Positions 29,471-41,848 of a DNA stretch of 44,540 nt are shown one piece after another (positions within the stretch are counted from its first letter, which is position 1; every line of letters starts with the position of its first letter). Under the pieces are notes generated by a model, which did not search any database, was not told where the DNA came from, and worked only from the letters and a program-made list of their open reading frames with translations. The DNA is from a virus. The stretch lies in the IMG/VR virus record IMGVR_UViG_3300011253_000967, positions 1 to 44,540 of that record; one strand, 5' to 3'. The translations under genes and the position numbers were made by a program.

Positions 29471-29703
29471 GATTCGTCACTCTTGCAAGCGTCGAGGTTC
29501 TTTTGCGCGGCGAGGCACCGCGCGATCCTCAGCTCGTTGCCTGTCAGAAGACAGCTGACTTGTCTTAGGTCTCGCGCGGCCGCTTCGTATACCAGTTTGC
29601 GCTTTACGTATCCGTCTATCAGTCTTTGACGATTGCTAGGCCGCTCGTCGTACGCCTCTTTGATGTCCGCGTCCGTCCACACCTTCGGGCTTACGTGGTT
29701 CAC
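29467..29703 (-). CDS. Small helical hypothetical protein
   Basis: This 78-residue protein starts most likely at GTG 29703, which overlaps the stop of the RecD2-like helicase (GTGA). A GTG at 29727 is the only earlier choice. It is helical and charged (WTDADIKEAYDERPSNRQRLI, shown in part, and VKRKLVYEAAARDLR) with two cysteines at the end region. It may bind DNA or the helicase. No family recognised. Confidence 0.5.
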   Translation of the reverse strand: MNHVSPKVWTDADIKEAYDERPSNRQRLIDGYVKRKLVYEAAARDLRQVSCLLTGNELRIARCLAAQKNLDACKSDES

Positions 29704-30899
29704 AGTTCCCCCATGATGCGCTCGCACAAAGCGGTGTTTCGTTTCGTGTCGCGCTTCGACTTGAGCGCGTGCGCTATGCCGCGTTCATCGCCGACGATGC
29801 ACACGCCTTTCTTGCCGCGTGTGATAGCGGTGTAAAGCAACTGGCGAGTGAGCATGTAACTGTGCGTTGAGTGCGCGATGACGATGACCCACGGCCATTC
29901 ACTGCCCTGCGATTTGTGGATGGTGAGCGCGTACGAAAGTTTCAGCTGGCGCGCGTCCGCCTTCGTGTATGTGACGTGGCCTTGTCGGTCCGCGTATTTC
30001 ACGCGGAGCCCGCGCGCGTCGATGGACGCGACCGTGCCGCACTCTCCGTTGAACACGCCTAGGTTATAGTCGTTCTTCGTGTGGATCACTGGGTCGCCGA
30101 CGCGAAGGAAGTTCGGTTCAAACCCCCATTGTATTGTCCCTGGAATGAGAGGATTGAACCGGGCTTGTAAGCGCTGGTTGATCTCTTCGGCCCCGGCCTT
30201 GCCTGTCTTCTGCGGGACTAGGATTTGCGGAAGTGCAAGTGCGCCTAGCCGCTCTCTCAAAATGCGTCCGATGTCACCGGCGAACTTTGGGATATTCGGA
30301 GCGGCGTCGACACTCTTGAAAATGAAGTCGGTGCGCTCCTCGAGGTCAAGCGCCTCGCCACTCAGAATACGCGGCGCGTTGGTGCATATCCACGACTCCG
30401 CCGCCGACCGGTGCACGTTGGTGAGACGTGCGCACGGAATGAGTTCCGACTTTACGAGGTCCGCAAGGATCGCACCGGGCCCCACGCTGGGGAGTTGGTT
30501 AGCGTCGCCCACTAGGACAAGCCGCGTGCGCGTTTCGTCGATGGCGTCTAGGAGCGAAGCGAAAATCTTCACATCTACCATGCTTGATTCGTCGATGACG
30601 ACGACGTCGCAATCAATCGGGTTGTTCGCGGAATAGTAGAACGCACGCTCTGCCGGGTTCCATCCTAGAAGGCGATGAATCGTCACCGCTTCGGCGCCCG
30701 TCGCTTCGCTCATTCGCTTGGCCGCTTTGCCAGTCGGCGCTGCGAGTCGAACGAACTCGCCATCGCTTTGCATTCTCTTGAGCGCCGTCGCGAGAATCGT
30801 TGTTTTCCCCGTGCCCGGTCCGCCGGTGATGATCGAAATAGGTTCGCCCGTGATCATGTCGAGCGCCGCGCGTTGCGATTCGTCTAGTTGGATGCTCAC
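29700..30899 (-). CDS. RecD2-type SF1 helicase, C-terminal ATPase half
   Basis: This 399-residue protein consists of the SF1B helicase core only. Motifs in order are Walker A IITGGPGTGKTT (Lys32), the Ia-like RLAAPTGKAAKRM, Walker B VVVIDESSMVD, motif III LVLVGDANQLPSVGPG, NVHRS (IV), YALTIHKSQGSEW (V) and LLYTAITRGKK (VI). The N-terminal OB/helix-hairpin-helix part typical of RecD2 is missing here but is encoded by the 33250 gene upstream in the same operon. RecD2 is a 5'-3' helicase. A complex of the two halves is inferred. It is GTGA-coupled to the 71-residue gene. Confidence 0.85.
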   Translation of the reverse strand: MSIQLDESQRAALDMITGEPISIITGGPGTGKTTILATALKRMQSDGEFVRLAAPTGKAAKRMSEATGAEAVTIHRLLGWNPAERAFYYSANNPIDCDVVVIDESSMVDVKIFASLLDAIDETRTRLVLVGDANQLPSVGPGAILADLVKSELIPCARLTNVHRSAAESWICTNAPRILSGEALDLEERTDFIFKSVDAAPNIPKFAGDIGRILRERLGALALPQILVPQKTGKAGAEEINQRLQARFNPLIPGTIQWGFEPNFLRVGDPVIHTKNDYNLGVFNGECGTVASIDARGLRVKYADRQGHVTYTKADARQLKLSYALTIHKSQGSEWPWVIVIAHSTHSYMLTRQLLYTAITRGKKGVCIVGDERGIAHALKSKRDTKRNTALCERIMGEL

Positions 30900-31111
30900 G
30901 TGTTCGCCTTAGCTAGGTCTTCAATCAGCTCGTCAAAGTCAAACGTCTTCGCGCCGCGTCTGGCAGCGTGAAATGTGTGCCAGTCGTGCAGAACGTACGG
31001 CGGCATGAGCACGCACCACATATAGTTCGTGTTCATGAGCCAAAGCTCACGCCCCTTAGGCGTCGTGATTAGGTACGCGCCGCTCTCGTGTTTTTTTCCG
31101 ATAGTGTTCAT
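30896..31111 (-). CDS. Small hypothetical protein
   Basis: This 71-residue protein begins at ATG 31111. The longer open frame before it is Arg-rich shadow of the methyltransferase gene. It has GAYLITTPKGRELWLMNTNY, then MWCVLMPPYVLHDWHTFHAA: a beta-then-helix layout with aromatic residues. It ends FDELIEDLAKANT, GTGA-coupled to the helicase. No family recognised. It lies between methyltransferase and helicase. Confidence 0.55.
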   Translation of the reverse strand: MNTIGKKHESGAYLITTPKGRELWLMNTNYMWCVLMPPYVLHDWHTFHAARRGAKTFDFDELIEDLAKANT

Positions 31112-31140
31112 TGAGCTTCGTCTTTCTTTCGTTTGGTTTT

Positions 31141-31827
31141 CTAGTTCCACGCGTCGCCCCACCATTCGGTTTGCGGGCGTTGGATCGGGTCGCGCTTTCC
31201 GCGCGGCAGCTGGTAGCGGACCACGCACCATTCCTGTTTGCCTCCGCCTTCTCCGTACGCGGGGCGTCTGGACAAGTAGGCAACGTTTAGGATGTTCGCC
31301 ACGGACCAAACGACTTCCCGACGGTCGACGCCCGCTAGACAGTTGAGCCGTAGCAGCGCCACGACGTCGCCCGAAGGTCCTGCGTCATGCATCGCCTTGA
31401 CCATGAAGTCAGCGACGTCGATGCCCTCTCTCGAGGCGTCCGGCGGATTCATAAAGACCGTGGCTCCGCGCACATCAAAGCTCGGGCCGGTCTTCAAGTA
31501 GTCCATGCGCAACGTCTGCACGCGCTGCGGGCTACGGCCGCCAAGCGCTGGCGTTGGTTGGTACACGTCAGCGAATCGCTCGCGAATATGTTCGATCCAT
31601 CGTGGGTCAACGTCCATCGCTAAGACCGTTTCCGACTCCGCCTCTAGGGCCGCTTTTATAAGCGATCCGCTTCCGGCAGTGGGCTCAACCACAAGCTTGC
31701 GACGCGCAACAAAACTTCTCGCGATCCGGCGCGCGAGCTTGGGCGGTGTGAACCACTGCGCCAAGCTCGCGTCATAGGCCGGGGCGATGTCCGGCATTAG
31801 TGAAAGCTGGACATCGCCGTCGCTCAT
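31141..31827 (-). CDS. Class I SAM methyltransferase-like protein with NPPD
   Basis: This 228-residue protein has an N6-adenine methyltransferase-like core. LAQWFTPPKLARRIA resembles the QxFTP N-terminus of M.TaqI-type enzymes, VVEPTAGSGSL (E48-P-T-A-G52) is the SAM-binding motif I, and FMNPPDAS (N127-P-P-D130) occupies motif IV. The usual catalytic NPP[YFW] has Asp instead of the aromatic, which flips and stacks on the adenine in active enzymes. It may be inactive, have changed target, or act on something else. It is ATGA-coupled to the upstream gene. Confidence 0.65.
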   Translation of the reverse strand: MSDGDVQLSLMPDIAPAYDASLAQWFTPPKLARRIARSFVARRKLVVEPTAGSGSLIKAALEAESETVLAMDVDPRWIEHIRERFADVYQPTPALGGRSPQRVQTLRMDYLKTGPSFDVRGATVFMNPPDASREGIDVADFMVKAMHDAGPSGDVVALLRLNCLAGVDRREVVWSVANILNVAYLSRRPAYGEGGGKQEWCVVRYQLPRGKRDPIQRPQTEWWGDAWN

Positions 31828-32354
31828 GTGCTTGGCCCTTCGGTTTCAGACGACGGGCTGTAGTTCGACACTGCGTCGCCCTTTGCTTCGGCGGCGCGTC
31901 GGACTTCGGCGGCTTCCGCGAGTTGCTTCGCCAGCGCCGCGTTTGCCTCCTCTTTTTTCTGCGCCGCTTCCGCGCTGATCTTGGATCGCTCACCAAACGT
32001 GGCTTCAGCATCGTGCACTAGTTTATGAATGTCCGCGCCGGAGATGCCGGAGCACAAGAGTGCGTCAACACCAATGAGCACAGCAACCGATCCGATGACG
32101 CTTCGTGGCACGCCGGCGCCGCTAAGCTTGTCGCACGTCACCGCTAACGTCATCGCCGTCGCGTTCTCTACGGCGGCGCGCGCGTCAAGCTCCGCCCCGT
32201 CTTCCGTGACGTCGATCACCGAACCGGGCTCTACTGCGCCATGCTTTGACCCGGCAACCTTAGCCTTTGCGTCGATGACTTTCGCCGCGTTGCTCATTGT
32301 CTCTTTGTGTCCGGACTTGATGGCCGGGCGTTCTTCGTTTGTGTTTTCTGACAT
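31824..32354 (-). CDS. Ala-rich hypothetical protein
   Basis: This 176-residue protein has a disordered N-terminus, an Ala/Val/Gly middle part (SVAVLIGVDALLCSGISGAD) and a charged Ala/Glu/Lys helix at the C-terminus (AAQKKEEANAALAKQLAEAA), likely a coiled coil. ATG 32354 has AGGAAGCGAG. It follows the RecD2 N-terminal gene by 11 bases and overlaps the methyltransferase by ATGA. It may bridge the helicase halves, by position only. Confidence 0.55.
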   Translation of the reverse strand: MSENTNEERPAIKSGHKETMSNAAKVIDAKAKVAGSKHGAVEPGSVIDVTEDGAELDARAAVENATAMTLAVTCDKLSGAGVPRSVIGSVAVLIGVDALLCSGISGADIHKLVHDAEATFGERSKISAEAAQKKEEANAALAKQLAEAAEVRRAAEAKGDAVSNYSPSSETEGPST

Positions 32355-32365
32355 GGTCTCGCTTC

Positions 32366-33250
32366 CTATTTTCGTTGTTGTAAAAGCGCACGGATTCTAT
32401 CCGCGCAACGTTGTTCATGCTTGTTAAGCGAGCGCGTAAACGTTCGCTTTCCATGTTGGACAAACTCGCCACGCTTGCGCATGATCGCGAGGTGCTTCGC
32501 CACTATGTCGCCGTCGATGCGCAGCACCTTTTCGGCGGAGATTTTCACGAGCTTGCCGGTCGGGACGTAGCAGTGCCCGGAGCCCGTGGCTTCTTTCATT
32601 GTGTGCCGTAGTCCGCACTCAATGCGTCCCACGCTGTCCTTGGGAACTCCCATGCGTTGGGCGATGGCGTCCGCGCGAAGGAACCCGAAACCGTCCACGA
32701 CTTCGGCCAGGTCGAACGGGTTCTTTCGTAAGCGCTCTTCGGATTCGTCGCCCCACTTCGCGAGCATCCGCGCGACTTGGTTTTCAGTCATGCCCCACGA
32801 ACGGAAGCGGATCATTTCGTCACGCTCTTTGCGAAAGGATTTGTATGCCTCGACGATCTCCGTTGCACGCTCCGGCGTGATGCCTTTCACTTCGACTAGT
32901 CGGCCGGGCTTCCGCTCAATGACGTCCCATAGTTTAGCCGCACCATCGAAGTGCGATAGCAGAGCTCTCGCGCGATTCTTACCCACGTGCGGAAGTCGCA
33001 TAGAGATCCAAGACACTGCGCCGTTGTCCGTTTGCGGCACGGTCACGCGCGAAGTGATCACTTTGAACTGACGTCCGAACTTCTGGTGTTGAGTCCACTC
33101 GCCGTCGAGTTCAATCGAGTCCCCAACTTGTGCGCCTAGAAGCTTCCCGACTGCGGCGACTTTCCCCGTTGACGTGGCGATCGTTGCGATGCTCCAAAAG
33201 TCATCACCTACGATTCGGTGTTGTTCAAGTTCGCCTTTGATCGTTTCCAC
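32366..33250 (-). CDS. RecD2-like N-terminal half (OB plus helix-hairpin-helix)
   Basis: This 294-residue protein lacks ATPase motifs. Residues 1-80 look like the OB-like opening of RecD2 (QVGDSIELDGEWTQHQKFGRQFKV). Then a HhH-like module follows (LPHVGKNRARALLSHFDGA, EVKGITPERATEIVEAYKSF), then RMLAKWGDESEERLRKNPFD and DGFGFLRADAIAQRMG, the succession found before the helicase core of RecD2. It ends after about the position where the motor domain should begin. GTG 33250 has GAGGGG upstream. The motor half is at 29700-30899, three genes away. Confidence 0.75.
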   Translation of the reverse strand: METIKGELEQHRIVGDDFWSIATIATSTGKVAAVGKLLGAQVGDSIELDGEWTQHQKFGRQFKVITSRVTVPQTDNGAVSWISMRLPHVGKNRARALLSHFDGAAKLWDVIERKPGRLVEVKGITPERATEIVEAYKSFRKERDEMIRFRSWGMTENQVARMLAKWGDESEERLRKNPFDLAEVVDGFGFLRADAIAQRMGVPKDSVGRIECGLRHTMKEATGSGHCYVPTGKLVKISAEKVLRIDGDIVAKHLAIMRKRGEFVQHGKRTFTRSLNKHEQRCADRIRALLQQRK

Positions 33251-33476: not shown

Positions 33477-34376
33477 TCAGTCGTCGGCGAACTCGTTCCC
33501 GTCAATGTTCGACGACTCTCCATCAGGAGTGGACACGAAAGAATCCTCTCGCTTGTCGGCGGCGGCAATCGCTTCGTTCGCCATCGAATCCCATTCCTTC
33601 GCGACGGCGGCGTAAGAAAGAATGTCGTCGGTTGGTAGGAGGTACTGAGGCACGCCGTCGGCGGTGCGCGATTGCTCGATTGGCTCAAGTACGGGTATCG
33701 AGTACATGCCGTTGTCACTCATCTTCAAAGACAGGCGACACGCGTACGCGAATAGCGGCATGTTTTTTCGTGTCTTCTTTTTTGTCTTCTTGTCCACGTG
33801 TACGCGCGCGTTTTTGTGGTGCGTCGAAGTGTGCTTCTGAAACGGAGTGAGCCCCGTTTTCTTGAAGCGGATCATGATCGGCTTCTGCGTCTCTTGCTCT
33901 TCGGCCACGACGTTCATGACGTCGCCGCACCTGCGAACGTTCTTCCCTTCGTCATCGGTGAACCAACCATAGTCCGGACAGTCGAGGCACGGTCGACGTT
34001 GCCCGTCTTCCATCACTCCGGTAACGCGGTCGTTTGACTGGCAGTGCACGATCGTCTTGTCTAGACCCTGGTCGAACGAGTCCCACTTGTACGTTTTTTT
34101 CAACGTGAGCATGACGACGTCAATCGTCTCTCGCGTCTCTTCGCTCACGGTGTCAAAGAAGACGTCTTTCGTCATCGTCTTTCCGTGCTTGTCCTTCCCG
34201 CGCATGTTCCAAAGAATGGAGCCGATCTTGATGTCCGACGTTTCGAAGTCGTCAAGGCCGTCGACGAAGTCTGGGTCGTCAAAGAATGCTCCAAGCTCTT
34301 CGGCCGCGGCCGCGAGTGCAAGTTCCGCAGTCTCTTCGGGGTCAACTTTTGCGATGTCTGTTTTTGCTTTTGCCAT
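33477..34376 (-). CDS. Cys-rich protein with acidic tail, candidate ssDNA-binding/recombination protein
   Basis: In this 299-residue protein, residues about 40-120 are a mixed domain (SDIKIGSILWNMRGKDKHGK, LTLKKTYKWDSFDQGLDK). Cysteines follow in IVHCQSNDRVTG and RPCLDCPDYGW, then RRCGD, a zinc-ribbon-like set. A basic patch (KKTKKKTRKN) and beta strands come next, and the C-terminus is acidic (DGNEFADD), as in single-strand-binding proteins. I recall phage proteins of this layout next to Cas4-like nucleases, most uncharacterised. Here it precedes such a nuclease's operon partners. The role is inferred. Confidence 0.5.
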   Translation of the reverse strand: MAKAKTDIAKVDPEETAELALAAAAEELGAFFDDPDFVDGLDDFETSDIKIGSILWNMRGKDKHGKTMTKDVFFDTVSEETRETIDVVMLTLKKTYKWDSFDQGLDKTIVHCQSNDRVTGVMEDGQRRPCLDCPDYGWFTDDEGKNVRRCGDVMNVVAEEQETQKPIMIRFKKTGLTPFQKHTSTHHKNARVHVDKKTKKKTRKNMPLFAYACRLSLKMSDNGMYSIPVLEPIEQSRTADGVPQYLLPTDDILSYAAVAKEWDSMANEAIAAADKREDSFVSTPDGESSNIDGNEFADD

Positions 34377-34402: not shown

Positions 34403-34819
34403 TTAGGACTTGGGATCAAGGTGTGCCGGTGGTGTATCGCGGTCGTGTGTCTCTTTGAAAATGCGATTGAACTCCCCTTGCCCGTGGTCGCGATCGTAGA
34501 GTCTATCGGATCCGTCACGTATCACGCCGTCACGCGAGACGAGTTTCAGCGGCACGCCGAACACGTAATCGAAATAGTAGGTTCCATCCCCACGGCGGCA
34601 CGCATTACCGTAGGCGTCATCTATCTCCTGCTCACTTGCAACCTTGTGTTGTAGCGAACCCATGCCAACGGGGCGCCCTGCGTTTTGCAGTGCGGTTACG
34701 AGCGCCGCGAGTCGGACGGGGCGCGGTTTCGTATCTCCATCCACGGCCCACGAAACGACGACGTCTTTGAAGGCGGTCTTCTGGTTGACGTCTACGATGT
34801 TTACTTCTGGTTGAGTCAT
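34403..34819 (-). CDS. Hypothetical protein
   Basis: This 138-residue protein starts at ATG 34819, which has the site AGGAAGA at good spacing. An ATG at 34852 (11 codons earlier) overlaps the nuclease gene and lacks a site, though it would give coupling. It contains FKDVVVSWAVDGDTKPRPVR, ALVTALQNAGRPVGMGSLQH and YYFDYVFGVPLKLVSRDG, a mixed fold without known motifs. It lies between the nuclease and the Cys-rich protein, suggesting a part in the recombination module. Confidence 0.55.
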   Translation of the reverse strand: MTQPEVNIVDVNQKTAFKDVVVSWAVDGDTKPRPVRLAALVTALQNAGRPVGMGSLQHKVASEQEIDDAYGNACRRGDGTYYFDYVFGVPLKLVSRDGVIRDGSDRLYDRDHGQGEFNRIFKETHDRDTPPAHLDPKS

Positions 34820-34841
34820 GTTTTCTTCCTTTGGTTTTGTT

Positions 34842-36098
34842 TCAGTCGTCATCGTCGAACCCGTCGAATCCGTCGAGTGTCTTTTGTATTTGTTCCAATC
34901 GTTTTTTTTCTTCGCCGATGGGCTGATACCCGTCGGTCAAGCACGGTCCGCGGAACTTGCACCGCGCACACATTTCGCCAGGCGCCGCGGGAAAGTGTCC
35001 GAAGCGAGCGGAGCCAACGATTGCTTTTAGGAGCGCGAGCAACCGAGGCGTGTCGCTCGCGGCGCGTTGCACTCTGTAGAACGCCGGTCCGCGGTGCTCG
35101 CCCTTTTCAAACTGGTGAGACTCCGGGGCACTGAGCCCCATCCACTCGAGTTCTTCCGGACGTGTGAGCATTTTCTTTTGCTTGCGCGTGTATGGGATTA
35201 GGTCCCTCATGTGAACGTACCGAATGTGTTCGGGGTACTCGTCAAAGCGCCTAAGTGAGAAGCGTTCAACCAGTCCTTGTAGCGCCAGCTCTTCGGGCGT
35301 CGTCGCGTCGACGCTGTCAAAGTCGTCGTCTGTCAAGTTGAGCTCATCTACGGCGTGTTGTGCGGCGGCGACTTCGAGACAGATGTTTTCAACCGTGTCG
35401 CGATGGCGTTCGCCTTCGACCTTTGGCACCGCATCGAACGGAACGAACCACGCGGACATGAGCGCGTTGCCGTAAATGCCGGACTGCCATCCATGGTCAA
35501 GGTCGATTTGGTGAGGTCGTTGCGCGCCGGTTTTCCAGTCGGCGAACGAAATGCGCGTGCTCACGTCGCCGTTTTTTAGGCGGGCTCTGTAGATGAGATC
35601 GACAGAGCCAGTCATCCATATGCCGCCAAGCTGATAAACGAAAGCGGACTCCGTCAACACTACTTCTCCCACGTGTTTGTGAAGGATCTCAAAGAGACCG
35701 TTCACCATGGCGAGCGCTTCGCTGCGGATCTTTTCCGGGTTTGTTTTGTACCAGTCGATGGGGCGCCCGTTTACTTCTGCGGCGAACTCCTCGTCAAAAG
35801 CTTTCTCGACGTGGGCGGGATCGACACGGTGAATCATCGTGTCTTCATCTGGAAGCGCGAGAACTTGCGGCGCTAGCTTGGACTTTAGAACGCGATGTAT
35901 AACGCCGTGCGCCGCGTTGCCCACGGCGAGCTTTCCTCCGGCGTTTTCGTACGCGACCTTGCCGGCCGCGCGCTCCTCCTTCTTTCGTCGGAGTTGCGAC
36001 GGGCAACCGAACTTCCCAATAAAACCGTTCAGATCCGATTGGTGGATCAAGTCATCGTGTCGGCCCCATCGTTGCCAGTTCCAAATGCGCGCCATCAC
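34842..36098 (-). CDS. Cas4/AddB-like PD-(D/E)XK exonuclease
   Basis: In this 418-residue protein, GKFGCPSQLRRKK (Cys32) and C-terminal CARCKFRGPC (about 377-386) give four cysteines, as in Cas4 and AddB nucleases that hold a 4Fe-4S cluster. Between them, GNAAHGVIH provides the conserved His, WMTGSVDLIYRARL the Asp, ISFADWKTGAQRPHQ the D-x-K core, and WQSGIYGNALM the Q-x3-Y motif. A long insert (about 220-330) is not typical. It starts at GTG 36098 (ATG 36095 is equally possible). It likely trims double-stranded ends for recombination together with the RecD2-like helicase. Confidence 0.85.
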   Translation of the reverse strand: MMARIWNWQRWGRHDDLIHQSDLNGFIGKFGCPSQLRRKKEERAAGKVAYENAGGKLAVGNAAHGVIHRVLKSKLAPQVLALPDEDTMIHRVDPAHVEKAFDEEFAAEVNGRPIDWYKTNPEKIRSEALAMVNGLFEILHKHVGEVVLTESAFVYQLGGIWMTGSVDLIYRARLKNGDVSTRISFADWKTGAQRPHQIDLDHGWQSGIYGNALMSAWFVPFDAVPKVEGERHRDTVENICLEVAAAQHAVDELNLTDDDFDSVDATTPEELALQGLVERFSLRRFDEYPEHIRYVHMRDLIPYTRKQKKMLTRPEELEWMGLSAPESHQFEKGEHRGPAFYRVQRAASDTPRLLALLKAIVGSARFGHFPAAPGEMCARCKFRGPCLTDGYQPIGEEKKRLEQIQKTLDGFDGFDDDD

Positions 36099-39017: not shown

Positions 39018-39241
39018 GTCTCTACCCCTTCTGGTTTCGTTCGGCCGGTCAACCAAACTTGTCGTCACGTTAGCGGCGGCGCGCGGCTTTGCAAACTTCT
39101 TTTTTCAACTGTGTGCGTTTTGTTTGCCATACGTGACGTTGCAATACGTTTGCGTATTCGGTGCGTCGACGTTTTCAAAACTTGCTTAGGCGGCGGCGTG
39201 CGCGTATTTGTGAGCCTCCAAACCAACCCGAAGGACACCCT
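39018..39241. promoter_or_regulatory. Divergent control region between leftward and rightward operons
   Basis: This 224-bp region separates the leftward operon (start 39017) from the primase-helicase (start 39242), so both early promoters should be here. I could not assign confident -35/-10 pairs. It contains an AATACG-TTTG-CGTATT inverted repeat, several GTCACG/GTGACG strings and a GTTTTCAAAAC near-palindrome. Similar GTGAC/GTCAC strings recur at 42.0 kb. Confidence 0.6.
39143..39158. promoter_or_regulatory. Inverted repeat, candidate operator
   Basis: AATACG-TTTG-CGTATT is a perfect 6-bp inverted repeat with a 4-base spacer in the divergent early region. It is the right size for a small dimeric repressor. 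Binding is not shown. Confidence 0.45.
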
Positions 39242-41848
39242 TTGACAGACGAAAAAACGCCGCCCAACGAAGGCCCCGGCGAGCCTAAACCCTTTCACCT
39301 AAAACCCGTCGACGGTGACACGAAGGACGCGCCGCCTGTGCTCATTCCGAAGCACCTCGAGGACCTAGAAGCGTCCGGGTTGAACGCCGAAACGATCGCG
39401 GCGTGCGGCATCTATTCCGAAACCGCGAGCGCGCCCGTCGCTGCTTGCCTGGGGTATGCGTGGCGCGGCGGCGGCGGGATGATCATTCCGTTTCGTGACT
39501 ACGATTCGCGAGCGATCATCTTCCGCAGAGTCAAGCCGGACAAGCCGCGGTTTCGCGTCCGGAAGGGGAAGAAAAAACCGGTCAAGTATGAGCACCCGCG
39601 CGCCATCGCGACGGCGCCGTACTTCGGACCGTCGACGCTCAACAAGCAACGGCTCGGAAGCGAAAACCGAATCGTTTGGACCGAAGGCGAAAAGAAGACC
39701 CTTGCGCTAGACCAGATGGGATTTGCCGCCATCGGCCTGACGGGCGTGCACAACTTCAACGACGCGAAGAAACTGAAAAACGGTGACGGGCTCGCGTGGC
39801 ATCCGGCGTTGGTCAAAATCGCCGGGCGCTACATCGCGAACAAGGACCACTATATCGTCTTCGATTCGGACTCTATGACGAATGACGACGTGATGTTCGC
39901 GGCGCGGCGTTTGGCGGGGTTGCTGCTCGACACGAAGGCGCGTTCGGTGCGTTTCGTTGTCATCCCCGGCGGTGAAAAAAAGTTGGGCATCGATGACTAT
40001 CTAGTCGAGCACGGCGAAGCGAAAGCAAAGGCGCTTTTCGACGTCGCGGCAAAGGTCGCCATGGGCGAAGAGCTAGAGCCCATCGCGCCGCGCGACCCGC
40101 TCGTAAAACTCGATTCGCTCGCGTGGTTGAAACCCGCGAAGGTGAGCCCGGACCTTCGCTTGCCTCCGCGCTTTGAGATTCGTCGCGACCGCTCTTTGTG
40201 GATCGAACCACTGGATCCGCAAGCGGACATGAAAGAGCTTACGCGTTCGGTGGTGCTCCCTGTTCGTCTCATGCGCGAGCACGCCGGCGAAGCGGAGCGC
40301 GTCGAACTTGCATGGTTCGTTCGTGGCGAATGGCGGCGCGCCGTCGTCAACCGGCATTCGTTGCGAGACTCGCGGAGGCTGCTCGCCGACACGCCGCCGT
40401 CGATGGCCATCACTTCGAATAACGCGAGCGCCATCGTCGCATGGTTCGAAGAATACATGAGGCACAACGAAACGCGATTGCGATGCGTGAGCTACGTTAG
40501 CGTTGGCGGGTGGCAAGACAACATAGCGGGCACCTGCTTTATGTTGGACCAACCCATCGCGAGGGGCGTCGAAGAAACGCTAGTAGGCGACGACATGGGA
40601 GACAGCGCGAAAACGCTTTCGGCACTCAAGCCGAAGGGTAGTTATGACAAGCACATAGGTGTGCTTCGTGAGGCGTTCGAAGCGGATGACACCGCGGCGA
40701 TTGCGATACTCGCGGCACTCGCCGCGCCGCTGCTCAAAGTGTTCAACGCGCCGAACTTCACGATCAACCTTTACGGAGATTCGTCGACGGGCAAAACGTC
40801 CATGATGAAAGTGGCGACGTCGACGTACGGCGACCCTTCGTCGCCTCAGTGGGTCGCTAGTTGGAATGCTTCCGCGGCCGCGATGGAGGCCAGGGCTCAA
40901 GTCTTGTGTGACTTGCCGTTGCCCTTTGACGAGGTCGGTTCGGGCGAACAACGCGCGATTGAAAAGTCCGTGTACATGCTCAACAACGGAACCGGCCGCG
41001 CGCGTTCAAATCAGCAACTAGGAACACGCGAAACGGCAAGTTGGCGCAGCATTGTTTTCTCGACAGGCGAACACCAGTTGGTTGACCGTCACGCAACTAC
41101 GGGTGCGCAAATCCGCGTGCTTCAGTTCAATGTGGTTCGCTTCGGCGGGGAGCGCGGCGCGGCGTGGGTCGATACGATGCGCGACACGTGCGAGGCGAAT
41201 AGCGGCAACGTGGGGCGCAGGTGGATCGAAGCGCTGGTTGACGTCGATGACTGGCGCGGCGTGATCGAAGAGTATGAGGACGCGAAGGCGTGGTTTCGTG
41301 AGAACGCGCAAGGTCAGCTCATGAAACGCCAGGCGGTTTACTTCGCGCTCATGTGGATGGCGGAATGCCTTGCGCATGAATACCTCGGCTTAGGCGACGA
41401 AAACGGAGAGACGGTCAAGGCGTTCTTTTTGGACGAAGACAACCGCGAGGAAATCGAGAGCGCGTCGACGCGCGCGCTCGAATGCGTTTCGCAGTGGCTT
41501 GCTTCAAGCGCGGAATCTTTCCCCGCTTTGGTGTCGGACGCCGGCGGAAAGCTCAAGACAGAGCGAAAGCAAGTCGGCGCACGTCTGCTCGCGGGCGTCC
41601 GCCACGGCACAAGGGTCTACGTGCTTACGTCCGCCCTTCGCGATCGTCTTTCGAAAGAAGGGATCAACTATTCAGAAGCGTGCGGCGGATGGAAGCGTGA
41701 GGGCTTTACGGCGTGCGATTCGAAGCGGATGGATACGCGGGTCAAGTTCAACGGGGAGCGCGTTCGCGTAGTGAGTTTGTCTTGCGAAGCGCTTGGAGTT
41801 GAACCACTGGACGAAGACGAAGCGGCGCGGGAGTTTCAGGATGCATAG
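39242..41848 (+). CDS. TOPRIM-like (DUF3854) / DUF927-type primase-helicase
   Basis: This 868-residue protein probably drives replication initiation. The N-terminal region has WTEGEKKTLALDQMGF and GLTGVHNF (DUF3854/TOPRIM-like Glu), YIVFDSDSMTNDD (the D-x-D of TOPRIM) and KLGIDDYLVE. The middle part, about 300-480, is the DUF927 linker. The helicase/ATPase has Walker A NLYGDSSTGKTSM, Walker B-like LPLPFDEVGSGEQ and IVFSTGEHQL (sensor-like). TTG 39242 with AAGGA at 6 bases is the best start. The frame is open back to a GTG at 39161 without a site. No polymerase gene is present. Confidence 0.85.
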   Translation: MTDEKTPPNEGPGEPKPFHLKPVDGDTKDAPPVLIPKHLEDLEASGLNAETIAACGIYSETASAPVAACLGYAWRGGGGMIIPFRDYDSRAIIFRRVKPDKPRFRVRKGKKKPVKYEHPRAIATAPYFGPSTLNKQRLGSENRIVWTEGEKKTLALDQMGFAAIGLTGVHNFNDAKKLKNGDGLAWHPALVKIAGRYIANKDHYIVFDSDSMTNDDVMFAARRLAGLLLDTKARSVRFVVIPGGEKKLGIDDYLVEHGEAKAKALFDVAAKVAMGEELEPIAPRDPLVKLDSLAWLKPAKVSPDLRLPPRFEIRRDRSLWIEPLDPQADMKELTRSVVLPVRLMREHAGEAERVELAWFVRGEWRRAVVNRHSLRDSRRLLADTPPSMAITSNNASAIVAWFEEYMRHNETRLRCVSYVSVGGWQDNIAGTCFMLDQPIARGVEETLVGDDMGDSAKTLSALKPKGSYDKHIGVLREAFEADDTAAIAILAALAAPLLKVFNAPNFTINLYGDSSTGKTSMMKVATSTYGDPSSPQWVASWNASAAAMEARAQVLCDLPLPFDEVGSGEQRAIEKSVYMLNNGTGRARSNQQLGTRETASWRSIVFSTGEHQLVDRHATTGAQIRVLQFNVVRFGGERGAAWVDTMRDTCEANSGNVGRRWIEALVDVDDWRGVIEEYEDAKAWFRENAQGQLMKRQAVYFALMWMAECLAHEYLGLGDENGETVKAFFLDEDNREEIESASTRALECVSQWLASSAESFPALVSDAGGKLKTERKQVGARLLAGVRHGTRVYVLTSALRDRLSKEGINYSEACGGWKREGFTACDSKRMDTRVKFNGERVRVVSLSCEALGVEPLDEDEAAREFQDA

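Follow-up and report, generated by a model that had tools for sequence, protein, structure and literature searches.

Bacterial RecD2, as represented by Bacillus YrrC/RecD2 and by Deinococcus radiodurans RecD2 (PDB 3e1s, 3gp8 and 3gpl), is a helicase made as one polypeptide. The Bacillus enzyme prefers forks having two ssDNA arms, and for the N-terminal region of RecD2, which comprises approximately 280 residues and is otherwise uncharacterized, a role in holding the second arm and promoting strand switching has been proposed (PMC12143592). A point mutation in this region of B. anthracis RecD2 is as damaging as a catalytic one, and Deinococcus RecD2 missing its first 150 residues is still an active motor; in E. 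coli RecD, a shorter N-terminal region touches a separate protein, RecC (PMC12143592). Among viruses, Dolichospermum phage Dfl-JY45 possesses a RecD2 encoded by a single 739-aa ORF, and PHROG 4412 (exonuclease V) is the phage RecD2 family. The window analysed here, which is the whole IMG/VR virus record IMGVR_UViG_3300011253_000967 (44,540 bases), encodes Mu-like portal and head genes and a phage RecD2 helicase that is divided between two separate genes, one for the N-terminal region and one for the motor (Table 1). The window proteins resemble bacterial RecD2 in domain order, motor motifs, SH3 insertion, OB/HhH region and folds, but they are two polypeptides instead of one, the linker being lost and replaced by a gene slot. 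Both halves match PHROG 4412, and the motor is 42% identical to the RecD2 of Dfl-JY45, which differs in being a single ORF. The RecD of E. coli RecBCD is likewise an SF1B motor, whereas the N-terminal half of the window helicase has a RecD2-type OB/HhH region that E. coli RecD does not share, and neither RecB nor RecC was seen among the annotated early-region proteins in the part of the window ORFs that was scanned. T4 Dda (PDB 3upu) is an SF1B helicase of a phage that lacks the RecD2 N-region; it matches the fold of the window motor (E 3e-20) with just 22% identity, and no N-subunit gene is known for it. No report of a split RecD2 was found in the open-licence papers searched, which is a lead and not proof.

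In the product of the N-terminal gene, Pfam places OB_YrrC (E 2.3e-13) over residues 1-72 and HHH_RecD2 (E 1.3e-24) over residues 140-228, and the end of this protein coincides with the site of the approximately 20-residue linker of intact RecD2; the RecD2-type OB and HhH region of approximately 280 residues is present in the window on a protein of its own, apart from the motor. The motor gene starts with a GTG codon that overlaps the stop of the preceding gene, and its product begins a few residues ahead of the Walker A strand. Pfam matches of the motor are AAA_19/AAA_30 (E ~1e-42), UvrD_C_2 (2e-17) and SH3_13 at residues 240-300 (E 1.2e-15), the last corresponding to an SH3-like segment inserted into the second motor domain, and the SF1 motifs (Walker A GGPGTGKTT, the DE of motif II, QLPSVGPG, HKSQGSE and TAITR) are conserved in alignments with both intact and split relatives. 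Along the 743 positions of the profile phrog_4412, the match at 43-307 (E 8e-32) belongs to the N-terminal half and that at 328-735 (E 1.8e-103) to the motor; the two are complementary with zero overlap. These results bear out the preliminary description, in which one gene was said to carry the OB/HhH region of RecD2 and to end where the motor should begin, and the other to open near Walker A with the helicase motifs; its coordinates and its count of three intervening genes are also correct. No second RecD2 motor match occurs elsewhere in the 44,540-base record, and the N-region and the motor, which RecD2 carries on a single polypeptide, do not share one in the window. Because the N-terminal reading frame stops at codon 294 and contains more than 20 further stops downstream, and because the gap of 1.47 kb before the motor gene contains many stops, simple read-through or a single frameshift is excluded. 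When modelled alone by AlphaFold2, the N-terminal half (pLDDT 92.0) has the RecD2-DNA complex 3gp8 as its top PDB match, and the motor (pLDDT 88.5) has RecD2 3gpl and 3e1s (36% identity, TM 0.79-0.87); from these confident models and matches, both halves look like complete domains and not fragments. As a separate observation, in three split motors (L061:6004-7377, L062:5953-7287 and L065:6004-7275) a low-complexity tail is followed by a terminal DDIPW, DDLPW or DELPW, which resembles the partner-recruiting acidic tip of bacterial SSB; the window motor has no such tip.

Table 1. Genes of the split RecD2 locus in the window, in cassette order.
Feature	Coordinates	Strand	Length	Evidence
PD-(D/E)XK nuclease, conserved cassette gene	34842..36098	-		Pfam PDDEXK_1 (E 2e-13)
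Protein between nuclease and p299	34403..34852	-	149 aa	No Pfam match
p299, conserved cassette gene, distantly Pam3_Gp34-like	33477..34376	-		Four invariant Cys
RecD2 N-terminal subunit (putative): OB fold, helix-hairpin-helix, winged-helix-like end	32366..33250	-	294 aa	Pfam, AlphaFold2
Slot gene 1: Ala-rich, partly coiled-coil protein	31824..32354	-	176 aa	
Slot gene 2: methyltransferase-like protein, motifs PTAGSGSL and NPP	31141..31827	-	228 aa	phrog_799 DNA methyltransferase (E 4.8e-9)
Slot gene 3: protein with stop overlapping the motor start	30896..31111	-	71 aa	Overlap in sequence
RecD2 motor subunit (putative): SF1B helicase core with SH3 insertion	29700..30899	-	399 aa	Pfam, AlphaFold2

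Relatives were collected by scanning IMG/VR and bacterial genomes with profiles, and each locus was classed according to whether the N-region and the motor share a single ORF. Scans of IMG/VR with a single protein of either half gave zero matches and profiles alone succeeded; a 20-row alignment was too variable for use as a pattern scan. Apart from the window, 37 contigs have a split RecD2 (36 once the near-identical L066 is removed as redundant), and the cut point is the same in all 37, falling in the inter-domain linker at profile position ~293 of the N-region and ~15 of the motor. The halves are separated by ~200-1,470 nt in 19 split loci, the window among them, and in the others they abut or overlap, with an exact 4-base stop/start overlap in four loci (L067, L070, L097 and L131). 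Every split locus whose flanks permit a view retains both halves, with the N-region ahead of the motor. The two-gene reading of the preliminary description is thus upheld by the same linker cut in 37 other contigs, together with the purifying selection on both halves described below. The split is neither unique to the window phage nor a recent accident, but a trait of a group of uncultured phages. In bacterial genomes, the N-region is fused to the motor at 79 of 80 loci, and the sole split locus, L200, lies in a Polyangia (Myxococcota) bin. This 74-kb contig contains the split cassette, and the bin is a possible lead to the host of split-RecD2 phages. Two sets of candidates were discarded: Rctr197k, which carries two recD2 annotations and was considered as an earlier example of a split, has a frameshift-like break inside the N-region, and many matches labelled "Bacteriophage sp." in the phage collection look like pieces of bacterial chromosome, those read carrying mreB-like or flagellar genes.

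In the tree of motors, 5 changes of the split label are required against 28.8 expected after label shuffling, one viral group holds 34 of the 36 split rows, and a single origin for those 34 motors was not rejected (AU p 0.364). Because no root was inferred for this tree, the direction of change, fission or fusion, is itself an inference. L096 and L190 fall outside the main group and look like separate splits, L096 being nested with strong support among intact rows; at this locus (L096:4123-7188), the linker site is occupied by two genes unrelated to each other's counterparts elsewhere in name or length only as 123- and 150-aa products, in an otherwise intact viral lineage. A full-length fused RecD2 of 804 aa (L155:5866-8280) lies downstream of the nuclease and p299 inside the split group, and the grouping of its motor among split motors suggests that the two parts were probably re-fused there; L078 is an ambiguous, partial case. 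The preliminary description had named an intact RecD2 next to one half in relatives as counter-evidence; L155 supplies this in part, having the intact gene after the same nuclease and p299, but no spare half adjoins it. Among the 21 split or re-fused records searched, 12 encode the window terminase at 39-58% identity (these 12 being 43.9-46.7 kb long) and 17 encode the window primase/helicase-like protein, indicating that the split RecD2 belongs to a phage group. The latter protein (39161-41848, 895 aa) has DUF3854 and DUF927, is conserved in most split-RecD2 phages and is likely a primase-helicase. RecD2, the nuclease and p299 are all missing from three relatives that share the terminase (G004-G006), so the module is exchanged between phages. 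These three had first suggested that the split was a unique oddity, an idea overturned by profile-found phages with split genes and terminases of up to 58% identity.

The conserved order of the cassette is PD-(D/E)XK nuclease, p299, RecD2 N-region, variable slot and RecD2 motor. The nuclease and p299 are both located upstream of the N-terminal half in 21 split loci, and likewise in L155; p299 without the nuclease was seen in L097 and L131, and, of the split loci whose upstream flank is intact, most have a p299 homologue ahead of the N-terminal half. The nuclease was found beside no intact-RecD2 locus other than L155, and p299 adjoins a few intact RecD2 genes (L034, L035, L082, L083, L103, L162 and L173). 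The invariant cysteines of p299 are C112, C130, C133 and C150, and its acidic tail is variable. The p299 homologue in L080 matches Pfam Pam3_Gp34, the homologue in L064 used as a query gave no match among 50,697 deposited phage records, and a convincing PDB relative was not found with the p299 profile; a role in ssDNA binding is a guess. The 149-aa protein encoded between the nuclease and p299 in the window has no homologue in other split loci.

Based on these comparisons of sequence and predicted structure, we lean towards a two-polypeptide RecD2 that would have arisen by gene fission at the linker, would be encoded in one operon with the nuclease and p299, and would most likely reassemble on DNA. 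Fission would have separated the N-terminal DNA-binding region from the motor, and both polypeptides would be produced together with the nuclease and p299. At a fork or end, the motor may then translocate 5'-3' along one arm, and the N-subunit may grip the second arm in trans, a contact that could let the phage tune strand switching. The split, its constant cut point, the intact motifs, the purifying selection, the co-inheritance and the cassette are established; we infer that the pair is active as a helicase, forms a complex and serves phage DNA replication or recombination. That the helicase is an obligate two-subunit enzyme, as the preliminary description supposed, is plausible; that an obligate heterodimeric SF1B helicase with a detachable fork-gripping and strand-switching N-subunit, a dedicated nuclease and p299 would constitute an undescribed recombination/replication machine is offered only tentatively. 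The activity of N-truncated Deinococcus RecD2 implies that the phage motor might work without its partner.

The two halves could instead be independent proteins of the same pathway, the motor being a Dda/Pif1-like accessory helicase and the N-terminal half a free-standing ssDNA- or junction-binder, with no RecD2-like complex. The SF1B helicases Dda and Pif1 act without a RecD2-type N-region; the fold match of the motor to Dda, the prediction that the N-terminal half is well folded by itself and its faster evolution than the motor in some pairs (86% against 92% identity between L106 and L111) are consistent with such independence. However, the halves are always kept together, N first, where the flanks show, a close relative (L155) has the fused form, and the cut lies exactly at a RecD2 domain boundary, all of which make independence rather doubtful. 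Distances of the N-region and the motor are correlated (Mantel r 0.82, p 0.0005, n 27), but other cassette pairs also correlate (0.63-0.79), so this correlation shows joint inheritance only and not contact.

It is improbable that three genes or a mobile element recently inserted into recD2 of the window phage and broke it into fragments that are now decaying or have newly adapted. Three phage-specific genes do separate the halves, and L096 illustrates an otherwise intact lineage split with two genes inserted, but the nearest relatives are split too, and in many of them no gene intervenes; both ORFs of the window are complete and keep all their motifs, and the terminal branch of the window on the motor tree is not unusually long. 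Both halves are also under purifying selection in relatives, as dN/dS in four close pairs is 0.11-0.24 for the N-region and 0.06-0.24 for the motor; in the more distant pair L092/L111 it is 0.48 and 0.33, respectively, with synonymous sites near saturation. The earlier suggestion that an insertion split one gene is therefore not upheld as a recent event, since the split is older than the window phage.

The three intervening ORFs are on the same strand as the halves and have coding-like codon-position GC, and their tight packing and stop/start overlaps would suit true subunits of a five-protein helicase complex. The 176-aa protein has no Pfam match above cut-off and no PHROG match, the 71-aa protein has no family match in Pfam or PHROG, and homologues of all three are absent from other split loci, where the slot contains an MT-A70 methyltransferase (L079), DUF7768 (L152), small uncharacterised proteins or, in about half of the split phages, nothing. 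Because the content varies from phage to phage in this way, the three proteins are best seen as variable cargo in an insertion slot and are not likely helicase subunits; a five-protein complex is very improbable, and the notion of inserted partners in the preliminary description finds no support. A sequencing or assembly artefact, in which a frameshift or mis-join turned one gene into two, can be dismissed as a negligible prospect, for although Rctr197k and L101 look like N-region frameshifts and the same may hold for some loci with contiguous, overlapping halves (L076 and L077, for example), the 200-1470 nt between the halves in 19 loci including the window are beyond any frameshift.

The split loci define a conserved nuclease-p299-helicase cassette. 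Nature has here separated exactly the N-region of RecD2 and kept it so across a phage family, so that the motor and the N-region could each be purified or knocked out on their own, and combined at will, with no need for artificial truncations, and the split offers a natural test of the poorly understood DNA-gripping part of RecD2.
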